NCBI GenBank assembly: GCA_000995065.1
Contig: LBWX01000004.1
Coordinates: forward strand, 78,431-119,744
Direction: 5' to 3'
From: a candidate division CPR2 bacterium GW2011_GWC2_39_35
Lineage (GTDB): Bacteria > Patescibacteriota > CPR2
Length of the DNA stretch: 41,314 nucleotides
Positions 6,494 to 11,835 of this stretch are shown in pieces. The stretch's first letter is position 1; every line of letters starts with the position of its first letter. The notes beneath the pieces were generated by a model. The model ran no database searches. It saw only the letters and a program-made list of their open reading frames with translations, and was not told where the DNA came from. The translations under genes and the position numbers were made by a program.

Positions 6494-6551
6494 CTAAAGC
6501 TATTATCTAAAAGCAATAAGCCATCAGTGAAAATCTCAAGATTTTCCTTCT

Positions 6552-6629
6552 GGTACCCCTGATGCACTTCATATCGAACCGCTTGTTGAGTGGTTGGAAG
6601 AATTAGTGAAAGCTTATAACACTAGCTAG
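6552..6629 (+). repeat. GTPDA..IEPLV.WL coding-like repeat, copy A
   Basis: A plus-strand frame that reads GTPDALHIEPLVEWLEELV and ends in TAG after 25 codons. There is no start codon: the in-frame stop upstream at 6528 leaves only SQDFPS before GTPDA. It is one of three copies (also 7864-7944 and 9957-10037). The first 35 nt are almost identical among copies. Beyond that the DNA diverges but the residues stay similar, as expected of translated sequence. The protein of origin is not recognised. Confidence 0.6.
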
Positions 6630-6646
6630 CGCTTAAACGCCAAATC

Positions 6647-7720
6647 CTAAATAACCTCGAGCTCCTCTGCTGCCATTACAAACATGGAATGACTCCAACA
6701 AAGCGGCAAAACGGAAACTTGAATATTGTTATCAAAGATTTGCTCGGGAATATACTGCTTACCATTCAAATCTGCCAGGACCTTCTGGAAATATCGCATG
6801 GACTCATCTTTCCTGTTCATTTGGGACAAAACAATCGATAACCAGAAATTTAAAAGCGGCCAGTAGCCGGCACCCTTTTTACGATGACCGGTATTTAACA
6901 TCCAACCATCGTACTCATCATGTTCGTACCTATATACCCCATCGTTTTTTACAAGCCGTTCCATAATTAAGTCTACCGTTTTTCTAGCAATTTCACTAGA
7001 TGACTCAATTATCTGGAAAGGCCAAATTAATCCTAAAAGACTGGCATCAATACGTTCATCATTAAGTTTGCCAAAAGATCTTGAAAAAAAGCCTAGACTT
7101 TTAGCTGATCCCAAAAGAGTTTTTTCCATTTCTACAGATGTTTCTTCAAAGATTTTGTTTGGGAAAGCCTCGTTAGCCGACCTCAATCCGGTAATACAAG
7201 AAGCCAGCGAATAGCTAAAGTTCTCTTCTATGTCCGGATAGGTCATTCTTTCCTCCCAAAGATCGTTTGTAGGAATGCTAAAAGAACTATTGCGCCAAGT
7301 TTTAGTCAGACCGAAAGCCGTATCTTCAACTAGTTTTTGGTATTTTTCTTTTAGTTCCGGATGGGTTTGTAAGTAACGACTGACAATAAAAAGAATTAAA
7401 CCATTTTGATCCGGCTGAAAACGAGATAGAGCCTGAAGCCCATTTACATAATACTTTTCATAAAATAAGCCGGTCTTATCCCAGCCTTCTGCCCTGTTTG
7501 CCAACCAATCAAAAAAGGGCTGCTCGATATTATCTATTCCTAATTTTTCAGCGGCAAGACAAGTAAAAGCAGCGTCTCTAGGCCAGACATACAAATAATT
7601 TTTGGCTTCTTTAGGATAATAAGGCATAAAAGAATTGGCAGCAACAATGGCTCCATTCTCTAAAGAGCAATCCCTAATAACCTGCTTACTTGATTCTAAT
7701 AGCGCAGATAGTTGATTCAT
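6647..7720 (-). CDS. Glycoside hydrolase family 15 (glucoamylase-like) enzyme
   Basis: A 357-residue (alpha/alpha)6-barrel enzyme of the GH15 type, which releases glucose from alpha-glucans or trehalose-like sugars by inversion. The family signature is visible: YLYVWPRDAAFT (residues 42-53) with WPRD at 46-49, and DLWEER at 153-158, where the glutamates occupy the general-acid position. A second tryptophan/histidine-rich region (GYWPLLNFW) lies near the C-terminus. No signal peptide or membrane span is seen, so it should act inside the cell. Start: ATG with GGGAGAA upstream. It is shorter than many GH15 proteins, lacking the N-terminal beta-sandwich. No other sugar genes are adjacent. Confidence 0.85.
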   Translation of the reverse strand: MNQLSALLESSKQVIRDCSLENGAIVAANSFMPYYPKEAKNYLYVWPRDAAFTCLAAEKLGIDNIEQPFFDWLANRAEGWDKTGLFYEKYYVNGLQALSRFQPDQNGLILFIVSRYLQTHPELKEKYQKLVEDTAFGLTKTWRNSSFSIPTNDLWEERMTYPDIEENFSYSLASCITGLRSANEAFPNKIFEETSVEMEKTLLGSAKSLGFFSRSFGKLNDERIDASLLGLIWPFQIIESSSEIARKTVDLIMERLVKNDGVYRYEHDEYDGWMLNTGHRKKGAGYWPLLNFWLSIVLSQMNRKDESMRYFQKVLADLNGKQYIPEQIFDNNIQVSVLPLCWSHSMFVMAAEELEVI

Positions 7721-8064
7721 AGATTCTCCCTTATCTTACCTATTCAAAATAATGTATTATGCTAATGAAGTAAAGCCACGCTGCTCTTTTTACTATCGAT
7801 TTTAGGGATTCTTGGCTACAATGCGCAAACAAAAAGAGTCCCTTTGGACTTCTTTGTTTTCTTGGTACTCCTGATGCACCTTATATCGAACCGCTTGTAG
7901 CTTGGCTCGATCAAATTATTCAGGCTTATGATGCCTTTGATTAAACAAAATTCAAAGATTTTATTTTTAAAACCTTTGCAATTGTTTGTCTTATTATGCA
8001 TATTATTGCATGTTTACAGCGTAAAAACTAGATAGAGCCCATCGTGCTCTTTCGATGAATAAAA
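7721..8064. other. Gene-poor gap holding motif copy B and a weak hairpin
   Basis: No complete gene is seen. Positions 7831-7944 carry copy B of the GTPDA repeat. An AGAGC...GCTCT hairpin at about 8032-8049 may end transcription of the HD gene on the minus strand. The 61-codon minus-strand frame across 7816-8001 lies opposite the repeat and has no ribosome-binding site. Confidence 0.5.
7864..7944 (+). repeat. GTPDA..IEPLV.WL coding-like repeat, copy B
   Basis: Reads GTPDAPYIEPLVAWLDQII and ends in TAA after 26 codons. The frame is open back to a stop at 7771 (including NKKSPFGLLCFL just before GTPDA) but has no good start codon. Against copies A and C the changes keep residue type: W is invariant, L is TTG or CTC, E becomes D, and L/V becomes I. 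Confidence 0.6.
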
Positions 8065-8712
8065 CTAGTGCATTTCCGTTTCTAATTCCTCAAAAAACTT
8101 TCTCAAGAAGATGTTTCTTTTCTTTGCCATTTCGCTTGCTGTTTTGGTATACATTTTATCTTCAAAACCTAATCTTGTTGCTAGGTAATCCAGAGTATAA
8201 AACCCTTCTTTACGGTTTTTGCAAAAAGGGTCGTCATCTAATTTGCAAATCGGTCTCTTCATCACTCCGGCCGAAATAAATGCCCTTGCAATAATCATGG
8301 CTCCAGTGGCTTCTAAGTCATCAGCATCACGCGCAATTTTTCCTTCCAAAGATATTGAATCGTTTCGCGATCCTGTGCACGCCATAATTGCCGACTTAAC
8401 AGCTTCAATTTTTCCTTTAGAAAATTCTGGAATATTACTTAATATTTCCCCCGCTTTTTTAGCACTTTCGGTTTTAGATTTAAAATTTGACCAATTATGA
8501 TCATTTTTGGGCTTATCAATAAAATTATGAAAGAGTGCTGCTGGGATAACGATGTCTAAATCACCACCTTCCTCCCTTGCAATCTTTTCTGCATTTTTCA
8601 TCACTTGCAAAGCATGAATAAAATCATGTGCAGGGTCATTCTTAATGATGCCTTTTTTAGCTATCTCGATAAGCTTTGATCTTTGCTGGTGGTTCATATT
8701 TTCCAATTTCAT
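8065..8712 (-). CDS. HD-domain protein with HN in place of HD
   Basis: A 215-residue all-helical protein of the HD phosphohydrolase fold (YedJ-like layout), a metal-dependent phosphatase or nucleotidase family. Visible elements: AHDFIHALQVM (H29, H33), AALFHNFID (H62, N63) and KIARDADDLEATGAMIIAR (D129-D132). In the family the second element is HD; here the aspartate is asparagine, which may weaken metal binding or alter activity. It lies 46 bp after the radical SAM gene on the same strand but has its own TAAAAT box 6 nt before the ATG and no Shine-Dalgarno. Substrate unknown. Confidence 0.75.
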   Translation of the reverse strand: MKLENMNHQQRSKLIEIAKKGIIKNDPAHDFIHALQVMKNAEKIAREEGGDLDIVIPAALFHNFIDKPKNDHNWSNFKSKTESAKKAGEILSNIPEFSKGKIEAVKSAIMACTGSRNDSISLEGKIARDADDLEATGAMIIARAFISAGVMKRPICKLDDDPFCKNRKEGFYTLDYLATRLGFEDKMYTKTASEMAKKRNIFLRKFFEELETEMH

Positions 8713-8718
8713 TTACAT

Positions 8719-8724
8719 ATTTTA
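8719..8724 (-). promoter_or_regulatory. -10 box of a leaderless promoter for the HD gene
   Basis: TAAAAT on the minus strand, separated by exactly 6 nt from the ATG at 8712. No purine-rich ribosome-binding site precedes the start. Confidence 0.4.
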
Positions 8725-8758
8725 TTTGTGCCAAAGGTCTAATTGCTTGCATAATTTG

Positions 8759-9789
8759 TTAGTTGTTTATCATTTTGTGACAACTAAGTTCAGAAAAACT
8801 ACGATGAATTGTCTTTGAATTAGCAAAAATATTAATGGCTTTTTTAATGCCACTTTCATTTCTACTTCCGATTTTAATTTTTCACCTTTTACAAGACTGA
8901 GACCAAGATCCTGATCTATTGGATGACAAATTTTTAGCCTTCCATCGGCTGATAAAGTTAAATTACATAAACCTTGTTGGCACATGTATTCAGAACATTT
9001 CCTACATATATCCGAATAATGTGCATCGGCCTCAGTATCTTGAACTCTAATTTTTGTGCCCCCGGGCGTTGTAAAAACTTTTTTGGGTTGGCCATAACCA
9101 CCGGGAGAATTAATAATTTTGGGTTTACCAAAAGTTTTTTCTAAATACTGAGCAATTTCTCCTAAAGCAACGTAATTTTTTTGCCAAAATTCCCTATCTT
9201 GAACATTTTTATTAGGGAAATTCATGATATCAAAAAGTTTTAGATCTAATCCGTTTTTGATACAGAGGTTAATGATTTCATTAATTTCCTTGATATTGTA
9301 TTTTCCAATTACAGAGTGAACTCTAACCTCTGTAAATTTCTTGATCTCGCTTATTCCCCGAATCGCTTTTTCAAGATTATCCCTTAAAGGGTTACCTGAA
9401 ATAAAACAATAATTTTCTATATCAAAGGTATCAATGCTTACTTTTACTTTATCAAAATCCGCTCTTCCTATCTCTTCTATATATTTTTCAATTAAAACCC
9501 CATTGGTATTTAGTCTTAAGTAACCATCATCATTGCCAAGAGATTTGATATATTTCACCAAGGGAAAAGTAATTTCTGGAACTATTAATGGTTCGCCACC
9601 TGTAATGCTAAAAAACTTTATTCCTTCTTCATAGGCAGCCTTAACTATTTTTTTAAAGTCTTCTAACCCAAGAGTCTTTCCGACCAAAGAATAACTATCG
9701 CCTGACTTTGGACAATAGAGGCATTTTAAATTACATTTTTCAGTAACGGCTATTCTAAGTGATGGTGGTTTTTGCAATGTGTTCTCCAA
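8759..9789 (-). CDS. MoaA-like radical SAM protein with possible -1 frameshift near its end
   Basis: A radical SAM enzyme with CNLKCLYC (C19, C23, C26) binding the SAM-cleaving 4Fe-4S cluster and the GGEPL motif near residue 65. The C-terminal cysteine-rich part (YSDICRKCSEYMCQQGLC, then LTLSADGRLKICHP) resembles the auxiliary-cluster domain of MoaA. No other molybdopterin genes are seen, so the role is probably different. The start is TTG with a poor ribosome-binding site. The zero frame stops at 8770 and ends in an odd hydrophobic tail (PLIFLLIQRQFIVVFLNLV). At AAAAAAG (8839-8845) a -1 slip gives AINIFANSKTIHRSFSELSC and a stop at 8759-8761. The coordinates given include the shifted end. 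An A-run indel is the alternative. Confidence 0.75.
8839..8845 (-). promoter_or_regulatory. A AAA AAG slippery heptamer
   Basis: In the zero frame of the radical SAM gene the codons are TTA AAA AAG, the heptamer used for -1 frameshifting in E. coli dnaX. Slippage by one base joins the zero frame to a 26-codon extension of more protein-like composition. I did not find a clear stimulatory stem-loop downstream. Confidence 0.4.
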
Positions 9790-9838
9790 TGAAAATTCTG
9801 CCTAATTATACTATTTTAAACCAAAAATTGAAAGGTAT

Positions 9839-9935
9839 GGTTCGAGTCCTGTTTGCTTTATGAAGAGATTTTTTGGCTTTCATTAAATACTTCGAACCAC
9901 TAAAAAATGCCTTTGTAAAGGCATTTTTAGATATT
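9839..9935 (+). repeat. T-loop-bearing repeat with terminator hairpin, copy C (left of Fic operon)
   Basis: Begins with GGTTCGAGTCCT, the tRNA T-loop consensus also present in the nearby tRNA-Leu. About 40 nt later comes the inverse word TTCGAACCACTAAAAAAT, and then a hairpin (AAAAATGCC...GGCATTTTT, 9903-9928). The same order occurs at 11623-11735 on the other side of the Fic operon, in the same orientation. Confidence 0.65.
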
Positions 9936-9956
9936 AGAAAAAGGGGTGTCCCTTTT

Positions 9957-10037
9957 GGTACCCCTGATGCACTTTATATCGAACCGCTTGTTGAGTGGTT
10001 GGAGAAGTTGATGAGTGTTCATGATCAAGTGGATTAG
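9957..10037 (+). repeat. GTPDA..IEPLV.WL coding-like repeat, copy C
   Basis: Reads GTPDALYIEPLVEWLEKLM and ends in TAG after 26 codons, overlapping the 3' end of the opposing 151-codon gene by 4 bp. The same frame stays open back to 9861, through the hairpin, reading FIKYFEPLKNAFVKAF, still without a start codon. Confidence 0.6.
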
Positions 10038-10489
10038 CGATTCTTAGTATCTTCATCCACAATTCTTAATCTATCAACACCATGTTCCTCGAACTCTTCT
10101 CTATATTTGGCATATATCTCATGAATTCTTTCAGGAAACCAGCTATCTCTGGCTAATTCTTTTTTCTCCTTATCTGTTATTGTTTCGTAAAAGTCCCGCT
10201 TCCCAAGCTCACGTTCCAAAAACTCCCAAAATACAAAATCATCGTAACTCTCCATAGTCTCTTCAATGCGATTACTTAATTCTTCAGAAGGAAGAGGATG
10301 TCCTTCAAAATCTTCAACCAAATCTCCACTTTCGAAATAATCAGCCTTTGTGATTAAATAGTCTTCGATTTGGTCATAATCTTTGCCTTTATAGAGCCCT
10401 TGGTCAAATAGGCTGCCTCGAATCCAGTTACCCAATAAAACAACCTCTAAAAGATCACGGTACTGTTTTTTAGTTAGCTTGATTTCCAT
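10034..10489 (-). CDS. Uncharacterised acidic protein in operon with Fic
   Basis: A 151-residue soluble protein, strongly charged and rich in Glu, Asp and aromatic residues (for example YDQIEDYLITKADYFESGDL). There is no signal peptide or membrane span, and I do not recognise a family. I chose the ATG at 10489, which has GGAGAG 4-5 nt upstream; a TTG four codons earlier abuts the Fic stop and has no ribosome-binding site. It follows the Fic gene by 12 bp and shares its promoter, so a partner, substrate or modulator of the Fic enzyme is plausible, but this is inference from context only. Confidence 0.75.
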   Translation of the reverse strand: MEIKLTKKQYRDLLEVVLLGNWIRGSLFDQGLYKGKDYDQIEDYLITKADYFESGDLVEDFEGHPLPSEELSNRIEETMESYDDFVFWEFLERELGKRDFYETITDKEKKELARDSWFPERIHEIYAKYREEFEEHGVDRLRIVDEDTKNR

Positions 10490-10501
10490 TTTACTCTCCA
10501 A

Positions 10502-11536
10502 TTATTTGACCTTTATCTTATAATAAGTAGCTTTGCCCTTACCATGTCGTTCTATAAGTCCTAATCCGATCAGCTTATTAAAGTCCTGATTTCTGGTAGG
10601 TTTGGCTCGAGTTGTAAGCTTGGCATAATCTTTGTCGGTTATATAGCCGTTTTCTTCAATAAACTGTAGGATTTTTTGATGGTATGGTTTAAGAGATTTT
10701 TCGGGTGACAGAATTTTGGTTTCAAGAGCCTTGCCGACTCTTAATACCTCGTCAATAATACCATCGGTAAAGTATTCAAGCCACTGGGTAAAATCAACAC
10801 TATCTTCAAGCTCATAATAATTACCTCGCAAACCAACGTTTTGAAAATACCTGGTCACATTTTGGTTGTAATAATTTTCAAAGCTAAAAAGATTAAAGGT
10901 ATTAAGACCCATATTGGCAAGAAGAACTTTAGTAGCCAATCTTGCAGTCCGGCCGTTACCATCAGTAAAAGGATGAATAATCACAAATTGTTTATGAAAT
11001 AAACCAGCAATGATAAGGGGATCAAGTTTGCCTTCGTTTTCTTTGACATAGCCAATTAAATTTTCAAGAAATTTTGGCACATCCTGATGATCTGGCGGCA
11101 AATAAATTGGTCTCCCGGTTCTTGGATCGTTCACAAAAACAGGTTCTTGCCTTATTTTACCAGCATTGTTTTTACTAATAAGACCATTAGTGATAATCCT
11201 TTGGATTCTTAAGATTAAGGCGAGGTTAAAATTAACTGAATGATCCTCAATTTCTCTATTTAATAATCCCAAAGCCTTATTGTAATTTAGAACCTCTTTT
11301 TCACTATCCCTTAGATTTAGAGGTTTGTTTTTTATGATTCTTTTAACCTCGGTTAAAGGTAGCGGGTTTCCCTCAATACTTGTTGAGGAATAGGCTGAAA
11401 TTTCCCTTGCGTCTCTTTCAAGCCCTTCTAAAGTCACTAAAGGAAAACGCCGGTTATTTAGATCAGCAACAAGGATACCAATTCTTTTGATGTTTTCTAG
11501 TAGTTTTGGGGTAATGATAAATTTTGGATTAAACAT
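10502..11536 (-). CDS. Fic-domain AMP-transferase with inhibitory motif and winged helix
   Basis: A 344-residue Fic protein, a family that transfers AMP or similar groups to Ser/Thr/Tyr of target proteins. The catalytic loop is HPFTDGNGRTAR at residues 188-199, with H188 as the base. An N-terminal inhibitory motif STSIEGN (51-57) fits the (S/T)xxxE(G/N) rule, so this is a class II, self-inhibited Fic. The flap YLPPDH is at 145-150. A winged-helix-like C-terminus (about 280-344, YHQKILQFIEENGYITDKDY) suggests DNA or protein binding. The operon promoter carries three 11-bp-spaced repeats. The cassette lies beside tRNA-Leu between two related repeats, which suggests acquisition. Confidence 0.92.
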   Translation of the reverse strand: MFNPKFIITPKLLENIKRIGILVADLNNRRFPLVTLEGLERDAREISAYSSTSIEGNPLPLTEVKRIIKNKPLNLRDSEKEVLNYNKALGLLNREIEDHSVNFNLALILRIQRIITNGLISKNNAGKIRQEPVFVNDPRTGRPIYLPPDHQDVPKFLENLIGYVKENEGKLDPLIIAGLFHKQFVIIHPFTDGNGRTARLATKVLLANMGLNTFNLFSFENYYNQNVTRYFQNVGLRGNYYELEDSVDFTQWLEYFTDGIIDEVLRVGKALETKILSPEKSLKPYHQKILQFIEENGYITDKDYAKLTTRAKPTRNQDFNKLIGLGLIERHGKGKATYYKIKVK

Positions 11537-11553
11537 AAAATTCTCTTTAGTTT

Positions 11554-11583
11554 ATAGACAAATAATAGACGATTCATAGACGA
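11554..11583 (-). promoter_or_regulatory. Three ATAGACRA repeats at 11-bp period: likely operator of the Fic operon
   Basis: Plus-strand words ATAGACAA (11554), ATAGACGA (11565) and ATAGACGA (11576) are spaced exactly 11 bp apart, about one helical turn. They cover the -10 box and spacer of the Fic promoter, so a bound protein would block RNA polymerase. The winged-helix end of the Fic protein is a candidate binder (inference). Confidence 0.6.
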
Positions 11584-11590
11584 TTGTCAA
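11562..11590 (-). promoter_or_regulatory. Sigma70-type promoter of the Fic operon
   Basis: On the minus strand TTGACA (11585-11590), a 17-nt spacer and TATTAT (11562-11567). The Fic ATG at 11536 follows about 25 nt later, with AAAGAG as a weak ribosome-binding site. Confidence 0.75.
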
Positions 11591-11622
11591 CAACCCAAAT
11601 CAATTCAATGAAACTATAGGAT

Positions 11623-11735
11623 GGTTCGAGTCCTTTCTGCCTAAAGGCTTTTTCGCGAAAGAAATTTTTGGATTTTTGTAAATATTTCGAACCACTAAAA
11701 AATCCCTTATTTAGGGGATTTTTTAAATAGTATTA
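11623..11735 (+). repeat. T-loop-bearing repeat with terminator hairpin, copy D (right of Fic operon)
   Basis: Same order as 9839-9935: GGTTCGAGTCCT, then TTCGAACCACTAAAAAAT, a hairpin and TAGTATTA. One frame gives KYFEPLKNPLF, like KYFEPLKNAFV of copy C, before a stop. The element abuts tRNA-Leu, whose complement begins with the same TGGTACC word that precedes PDA in the GTPDA repeats. Confidence 0.65.
11697..11724 (-). terminator. Bidirectional hairpin terminator downstream of tRNA-Leu
   Basis: A perfect 10-bp stem (AAAAAATCCC / GGGATTTTTT) with an 8-nt loop. On the minus strand it follows the tRNA-Leu gene by about 30 nt and ends in a T-run. Confidence 0.7.
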
Positions 11736-11751
11736 AATTGGGTGTCTCATC

Positions 11752-11835
11752 TGGTACCGGAGAGAGGACTCGAACCTCCACGCCTTGCGGCACGTGCTCC
11801 TAAGGCACGCGTGTCTGCCATTCCACCACTCCGGC
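11752..11835 (-). tRNA. tRNA-Leu (anticodon UAG), CCA encoded
   Basis: A minus-strand cloverleaf: acceptor GCCGGAG pairing with CTCCGGT (G1-U72 wobble), discriminator A, encoded CCA; D-arm with GTGGAATGGCAGAC; anticodon stem CGTGC/GCACG with loop CTTAGGA, anticodon UAG; a long class II variable arm (GCCGCAAGGC); T-arm GAGG TTCGAGT CCTC. It reads CUN leucine codons, chiefly CUA. The T-loop word GGTTCGAGTCCT also occurs in the two repeats bracketing the Fic operon. Confidence 0.95.

Follow-up and report, generated by a model that had tools for sequence, protein, structure and literature searches.

Three short reading frames of the form GTPDA..IEPLV.WL, each closed by a stop codon and lacking a start codon, stand in a row ahead of a tRNA-Leu gene in a 41,314-nucleotide stretch of the candidate division CPR2 bacterium GW2011_GWC2_39_35 (assembly GCA_000995065.1, contig LBWX01000004.1, positions 78,431 to 119,744; this whole stretch is hereafter called the window and is numbered from its first base). 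We conclude, with a probability of roughly 0.9, that these frames are the displaced C-terminal tails of large serine recombinase (LSR) genes, and that they serve as one half (P') of the attachment site attP. The features on which this reading centres are, as we interpret them:

6551–6629, plus strand: tail 1, P' half plus displaced LSR C-terminal codons, TAG stop, shared TGG at 6551.
7863–7944, plus strand: tail 2, P' half plus displaced LSR C-terminal codons, TAA stop, shared TGG at 7863.
9956–10037, plus strand: tail 3, P' half plus displaced LSR C-terminal codons, TAG stop, shared TGG at 9956.
11752–11835, minus strand: tRNA-Leu (tag), the target gene (attB), with its CCA complement TGGTACC facing the array.

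The frames run from 6549 to 6629 (SGTPDALHIEPLVEWLEELVKAYNTS), from 7861 to 7944 (LGTPDAPYIEPLVAWLDQIIQAYDAFD) and from 9954 to 10037 (FGTPDALYIEPLVEWLEKLMSVHDQVD), all on the plus strand and each 27–28 codons long including the stop; tail 3 overlaps the 3' end of a 155-amino-acid (aa) gene by 4 bases. An initial annotation of the same DNA had reported three stop-ended, start-less copies on the plus strand, and all three hold by position and frame. It had further likened their opening word, TGGTAC(C/T), to the complement of a tRNA 3' end; all three tails do start with this word, which copies the CCA end of the tRNA-Leu at 11752. When the 1.12-Mb genome was scanned for the DNA core of the tail with up to two mismatches, the three window sites and one poor site were returned, while the reversed pattern gave 0 matches in the same genome. 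By profile search, the genome carries seven copies of the tail.

The tail recurs in related bacteria. Protein searches found it in 6/59 genomes of relatives, the window genome counted, and a profile built from 11 tails was positive in 28 of 379 genomes of the phylum, with a maximum of eight copies per genome. This profile search gave 58 matches, of which 54 were aligned, the weak ones in G133, G060, G304 and G154 being left out. When GTDB genomes were scanned with a DNA pattern, 19 loci were found: 15 in Patescibacteria (Berkelbacteria, WWE3, Roizmanbacteria, Blackburnbacteria and others, with L105/L107 and L109/L112 placed via G008 and G231) and four elsewhere. As the scan pattern ends before the 3' half of the tail, that half provides a fair test of coding. 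Frame and Trp were kept there in 15/15 Patescibacteria loci, including one record that stops 18 codons past the start of the displayed reading with the Trp present, whereas Trp occupied that position in 0/4 of the matches outside the phylum. The tail sequence is coding, beyond chance.

Conservation within the tail is of two kinds. After the Trp, identity at the three codon positions was 0.49/0.58/0.36, with the third position the least conserved, and before the Trp the profile was flatter, at 0.56/0.59/0.51 (both across 24 genomes). Since third positions in the 5' half are nearly as conserved as the others, an added constraint at the DNA level is indicated there. Broken copies also occur, with TAG at the Trp position in G000:C8, Cys in place of Trp at G008:C7:3649, and one base missing near the start at G000:C1:179297. 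Searches with the consensus tail against plasmids and phages (tblastn), with the exact DNA pattern and one tail as protein against viral contigs, and with two tails against Pfam led nowhere.

Coding-like conservation would also fit a small gene in its own right, or a leader peptide, that starts in an unusual way and belongs, say, to a neighbouring PLD-domain or toxin gene, and in several genomes the motif does stand close before a PLD-domain gene. Across the tail copies, however, there is no conserved start codon, ribosome site or upstream coding sequence, the neighbours vary, and the sharp 5' border is accounted for by the LSR and tRNA geometry described below; we consider this explanation very unlikely. 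A small gene with its own start was rejected on the first of these grounds, and a tail of the PLD-domain gene itself because the distance to this common neighbour varies. A translated tail acquired by read-through, as the initial annotation had suggested, finds nothing conserved upstream of the tails to support it. There was no evidence for the end of a diversity-generating retroelement or group II intron; two reverse transcriptase neighbours were seen.

Some individual loci have features of their own. At L061, L066, L067 and L079 a same-strand PLD-domain gene downstream of the tail diverges from an opposite-strand small gene, which by eye reads like an XRE-type helix-turn-helix regulator; the pair recurs in several genomes. 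L086 (G161:C41) holds two diverged tails (EGL.LIEHFLPW) near AbiEii and a second gene, and one of them is preceded by an in-frame ATG, which lies 25 codons upstream and follows GGGGGAGGAG; no other tail has a plausible start. At L092 (G008:C7), beside tRNA-His, the tail and its downstream sequence are locally repeated within ~150 bp.

A structured RNA read from the minus strand, for instance one that is tRNA-like or belongs to a 3' untranslated region, would be in keeping with the T-loop-like GGTTCGA on that strand and with the hairpins beside the copies. Yet Rfam finds tRNA-Leu alone in the window, on which ground a tRNA-like RNA was rejected, and it is the third codon position of the plus-strand frame that varies after the Trp. 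This possibility is, in our judgement, more remote still than a small gene.

The source of the tails is suggested by the LSR genes of relatives. PF07508 gave 51 matches, found in 15 of the 20 tail-bearing genomes searched, and LSR sequences were retrieved for 40 of them. In one clade the genes end ...SPFYRAILDLQ..PVSFG, with a C-terminal pattern ..(V/I)(S/P/T)FG, and their frames continue into antisense tRNA, starting exactly at the complement of the CCA; the class pattern overlooked L143 and L154, which the tree places in the clade. By sequence, the LSRs match integrase chains of TP901-1 and A118, and resolvase, recombinase and zinc-ribbon domains were present in 4/4 of the LSRs scanned from related elements. 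The true C-terminus, G.LDALSFEHLLAWLDQLRQAF followed by a stop, lies at the opposite end of the element in related Patescibacteria. Because the tails open with the same FG/TTTGG with which these LSRs end, body and tail read as one gene cut at the crossover. At G016:C2:78868 the final LSR codons YSNQQISPLYQYISHFGDDNVS are retained in frame ahead of the tail, and the left flank is identical in 25/25 nt to the 3' end of the LSR of that genome. The earlier idea that the motif might be the final, exon-like part of a mobile gene since lost was essentially right: the tails would be 3' ends of LSR genes, separated by integration and not by splicing.

In all LSR clades taken together, an antisense tRNA or tmRNA end lies within 700 bp of the stop in 32 of the 37 genes with complete 3' ends. 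Open reading frames of other LSR clades run into an antisense tmRNA gene at L173 (G000:C5) and L174 (G231:C3), and further ones into tRNA-Ala, -Asn, -Val and -Trp. LSR genes of these clades may possess tails of different sequence.

The geometry of the attachment sites points the same way. On 9/10 contigs that carry both, counted by eye, a tail is found upstream of the LSR and in its orientation, which fits a placement of the two at opposite ends of an element. Tail and other-end tRNA were compared in 22 pairs, 8 with an LSR between them and 14 without. The tail bases after TGG match the acceptor end of that tRNA at 93/132 positions, against a shuffled mean of 49, and 0 of 100,000 shuffles reached 93; with repeats at the same site removed (18 pairs) the match is 79/108 against 41.6, again with no shuffle as high. 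Two poorly matching pairs were retained. Of 17 tails with a downstream antisense tRNA, 14 entered the comparison; the three omitted are a degenerate pair in G008:C7 and a tail of G185:C2 (CCA not encoded, CGGAG the only match). Also omitted were the LSR contigs G127:C3, where no tRNA was found beside the LSR, and G178:C15, where the tails are not upstream of it. Examples are TGGTAGTCCCAA (G008:C19), which copies the acceptor end of tRNA-Glu, and TGGAGGGCCAGGTG (G000:C2), which copies that of tRNA-Lys. In 20/22 pairs the common core is TGG plus 3–11 bases (TGG itself in 18).

Spacing adds a second signature of an attachment half. A TTCGAA-like word follows TGG by 22 nt in 33 of the 51 tails that could be anchored among the 54 aligned, and all three window tails fit; in tRNAs, TTCGAA, which is part of the T-loop complement, follows TGG by 17 nt. 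For serine integrases, a zinc-ribbon motif 5 bp closer to the centre in attB than in attP has been described (Rutherford et al. 2013, PMC3783163, in the sections consulted). The difference between 22 and 17 nt equals this published shift, and hence the tail resembles an attP half and the tRNA an attB half.

On this basis a sequence of events can be proposed. In the free element the LSR gene would run straight across attP, and attP would recombine with the CCA end of a tRNA gene. The LSR body would then read into antisense tRNA at one element end, an arrangement seen in relatives, and the start-less tail, comprising the last ~26 LSR codons, would stay at the far end, where it is found. The first ~35 nt of the tail may be conserved at the DNA level as a recombinase binding site, and the remainder at the protein level as the native C-terminus of the LSR of the free element, which would account for the two kinds of conservation. 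In the window, three tail-headed units are lined up before tRNA-Leu with their LSR genes missing. Their borders, drawn from the tails, and the right ends of the last two are:

6551–7862, no strand: unit E1, 1.3 kb, with tail 1 and a GH15-domain gene (6647–7720, minus strand); no LSR.
7863–9955, no strand: unit E2, 2.1 kb, with tail 2, an HD gene (8065–8712, minus strand) and a radical SAM gene (8770–9789, minus strand); no LSR.
9956–11751, no strand: unit E3, 1.8 kb, with tail 3, the 155-aa gene (10034–10501, minus strand) and a Fic gene (10502–11536, minus strand); no LSR.
9838–9955, plus strand: right end of E2, a hairpin and the LSR-C-terminus-like AFLDIRKRGVPFG (codons 9921–9959), resembling an LSR 3' end in 16/25 nt.
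11622–11751, plus strand: right end of E3, directly before the tRNA, alignable to the right end of E2.

An empty target site is seen in G008, where the syntenic region reads TyrRS, RecG, a 303-aa gene, tRNA-Leu(tag), thioredoxin, trigger factor and the next window gene, with thioredoxin 29 bp after the tRNA; G008 is a distant relative in which other changes are possible. In the window the gap between tRNA and thioredoxin is 6.4 kb, made up of the 5.2-kb array and a remainder with a pilin-like gene. The larger genes around the tails (pilin-like, GH15, HD, radical SAM, 155-aa and Fic) all lie on the minus strand. In PADLOC, the Fic protein of E3 hits the SoFic defence model (1.6e-46), and a Fic protein 67% identical to it lies beside a tail in G010. 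The radical SAM protein of E2 matches the PADLOC viperin models (8e-16), maybe merely through a shared radical SAM fold. The window genome gave two PF00589 matches.

Several observations weigh against the tails being displaced LSR ends. The window holds no LSR, and five of the 20 tail-bearing genomes searched have no PF07508 match. A downstream antisense tRNA is missing for 13/30 tails in the DNA examined, some of them at contig ends. The one case of an LSR directly beside a tail, G231:C39, has them a frame apart. Among the LSRs and tails examined, an intact LSR joined to its native tail was not seen, and no profile match to the tail fell within an LSR-length open frame together with an LSR. 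Finally, the right end of E3 agrees with LSR 3' ends at 13/25 nt, a level equalled by 25/100 shuffles and so not above chance.

If the tails are LSR ends, two accounts of the window units remain to be weighed. The units may be decayed LSR elements, left by successive insertions at tRNA-Leu and later deletion of the LSR body, and we hold the odds of this to be about even. The intact protein-like frames of the tails would be expected if an element with an LSR had recently given rise to each, the G016 copy derives from a simple deletion, and an LSR-like stretch is kept at the right end of E2; the 16/25 match there was equalled by 1/100 shuffles, with 52 flanks tested, and is modest support. Decay sits less well with the right ends of E2 and E3, which share ~120 bp of alignable sequence, hairpin included, despite different cargo, and with the recurrence of similar LSR-less units of ~0.5–4 kb in other genomes. 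By eye, a tRNA-Leu flank in G002 is similar to this right-end module, so that the module may be either an element end or native tRNA flank. Both 9838–9890 and 11609–11700 contain GGTTCGAGTCC and, ~60–70 bp on, TTCGAACCAC, an inverted pair resembling tRNA T-arms.

The units could instead be non-autonomous cassettes: cargo flanked by a P' and a P half, on which LSRs encoded elsewhere would act in trans, and which would pile up at tRNA genes in a manner somewhat like that of integron cassettes. We find this account quite possible while leaning slightly against it. The right end common to E2 and E3 would fit, as would the 14/22 tail–tRNA pairs that have no LSR between them and yet match their tRNA. 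An LSR-3'-end-like left flank would mark a tandem P–P' junction; at G000:C1:179297 the left flank resembles the 3' end of the resident LSR in 22/25 nt, and four PF07508 matches in G000 lie on other contigs or in other places. Such flanks, however, stand out in 6/52 cases (beyond G016, five at no more than 1/100 shuffles), and P halves were not seen generally at the right ends of LSR-less units. Moreover, some tail-bearing genomes are without an LSR, and protein-coding upkeep of the tail would be unexpected in a lineage long without one.

The neighbours of the tails include Fic, AbiEii, RloB with an AbiLi-like ATPase, BrnT, PIN, DUF4143 ATPases and PLD-domain proteins; an enrichment of defence and toxin-antitoxin cargo is our impression, formed without a control neighbour set. 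More tentatively still, and with some doubt on our part, Patescibacteria may possess an LSR-based cassette system, in which small units carry one or two genes for toxin-antitoxin, anti-phage or metabolic functions between P' (coding tail) and P halves and are stacked at tRNA CCA ends. LSRs acting in trans would move these units, and on integration such LSRs would trade their own C-terminus for residues encoded by the tRNA, which might act as an inbuilt directionality switch.

If the interpretation of the tails is right, self-splitting integrases have a counterpart among serine recombinases, and there is an LSR clade with tRNA genes as its targets. As markers of element ends with single-base precision, the tails offer a way to locate Patescibacteria islands that are probably missed by methods that require a tyrosine integrase and a tRNA fragment. 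The swap of the recombinase end on integration also makes a simple directionality switch directly testable. In the open literature we recognised no earlier description of the tail, none of LSRs that target tRNA genes in Patescibacteria and none of a self-splitting LSR, although later or subscription papers may hold one.

Among known systems, integron gene cassettes likewise form stacks of small accessory-gene units, have a recombination half on the 3' side of the gene, and depend on attC and IntI. The likeness to the present units is one of layout only, as the halves here are those of a serine recombinase at tRNA genes. An integron attC site as such was set aside as a reading of the tails, no formal test for it having been made. 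The integrase of the Myxococcus phage Mx8 is a tyrosine recombinase that targets a tRNA gene. Judging by the title of a reference named in PMC4383910, its gene spans attP and integration alters its C-terminal region, which is also what we propose here; passages of the same paper place Mx8 among integrases in the tyrosine-only sense of Islander. That 2014 database paper, in the part concerned, states that serine integrases are not known to target tRNA genes.

Another related system is that of the archaeal suicidal (SSV-type) integrases, which, in the passages of PMC8371274 that deal with them, carry the attachment site inside the gene, are split by integration between the two ends of the element, and are described as tyrosine recombinases and exclusively archaeal. 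They share with the present LSRs the attachment site within the integrase gene and the split between element ends; in contrast, the SSV-type enzymes lose their catalytic part, whereas the serine recombinase here would keep its catalytic domain and swap its end only. The split gene being a serine recombinase, it works like a suicidal integrase in splitting and is not a member of that group. The A118/TP901-1 large serine integrases are a further close system; the LSRs of related elements share with them resolvase, recombinase and zinc-ribbon domains and the 5-bp attP/attB motif shift, as far as these are set out in the relevant sections of PMC3783163. They differ from them in targeting the CCA end of tRNA genes, in an open reading frame that crosses the crossover, so that the C-terminus changes on integration, and in the stacking of LSR-less units at one tRNA.

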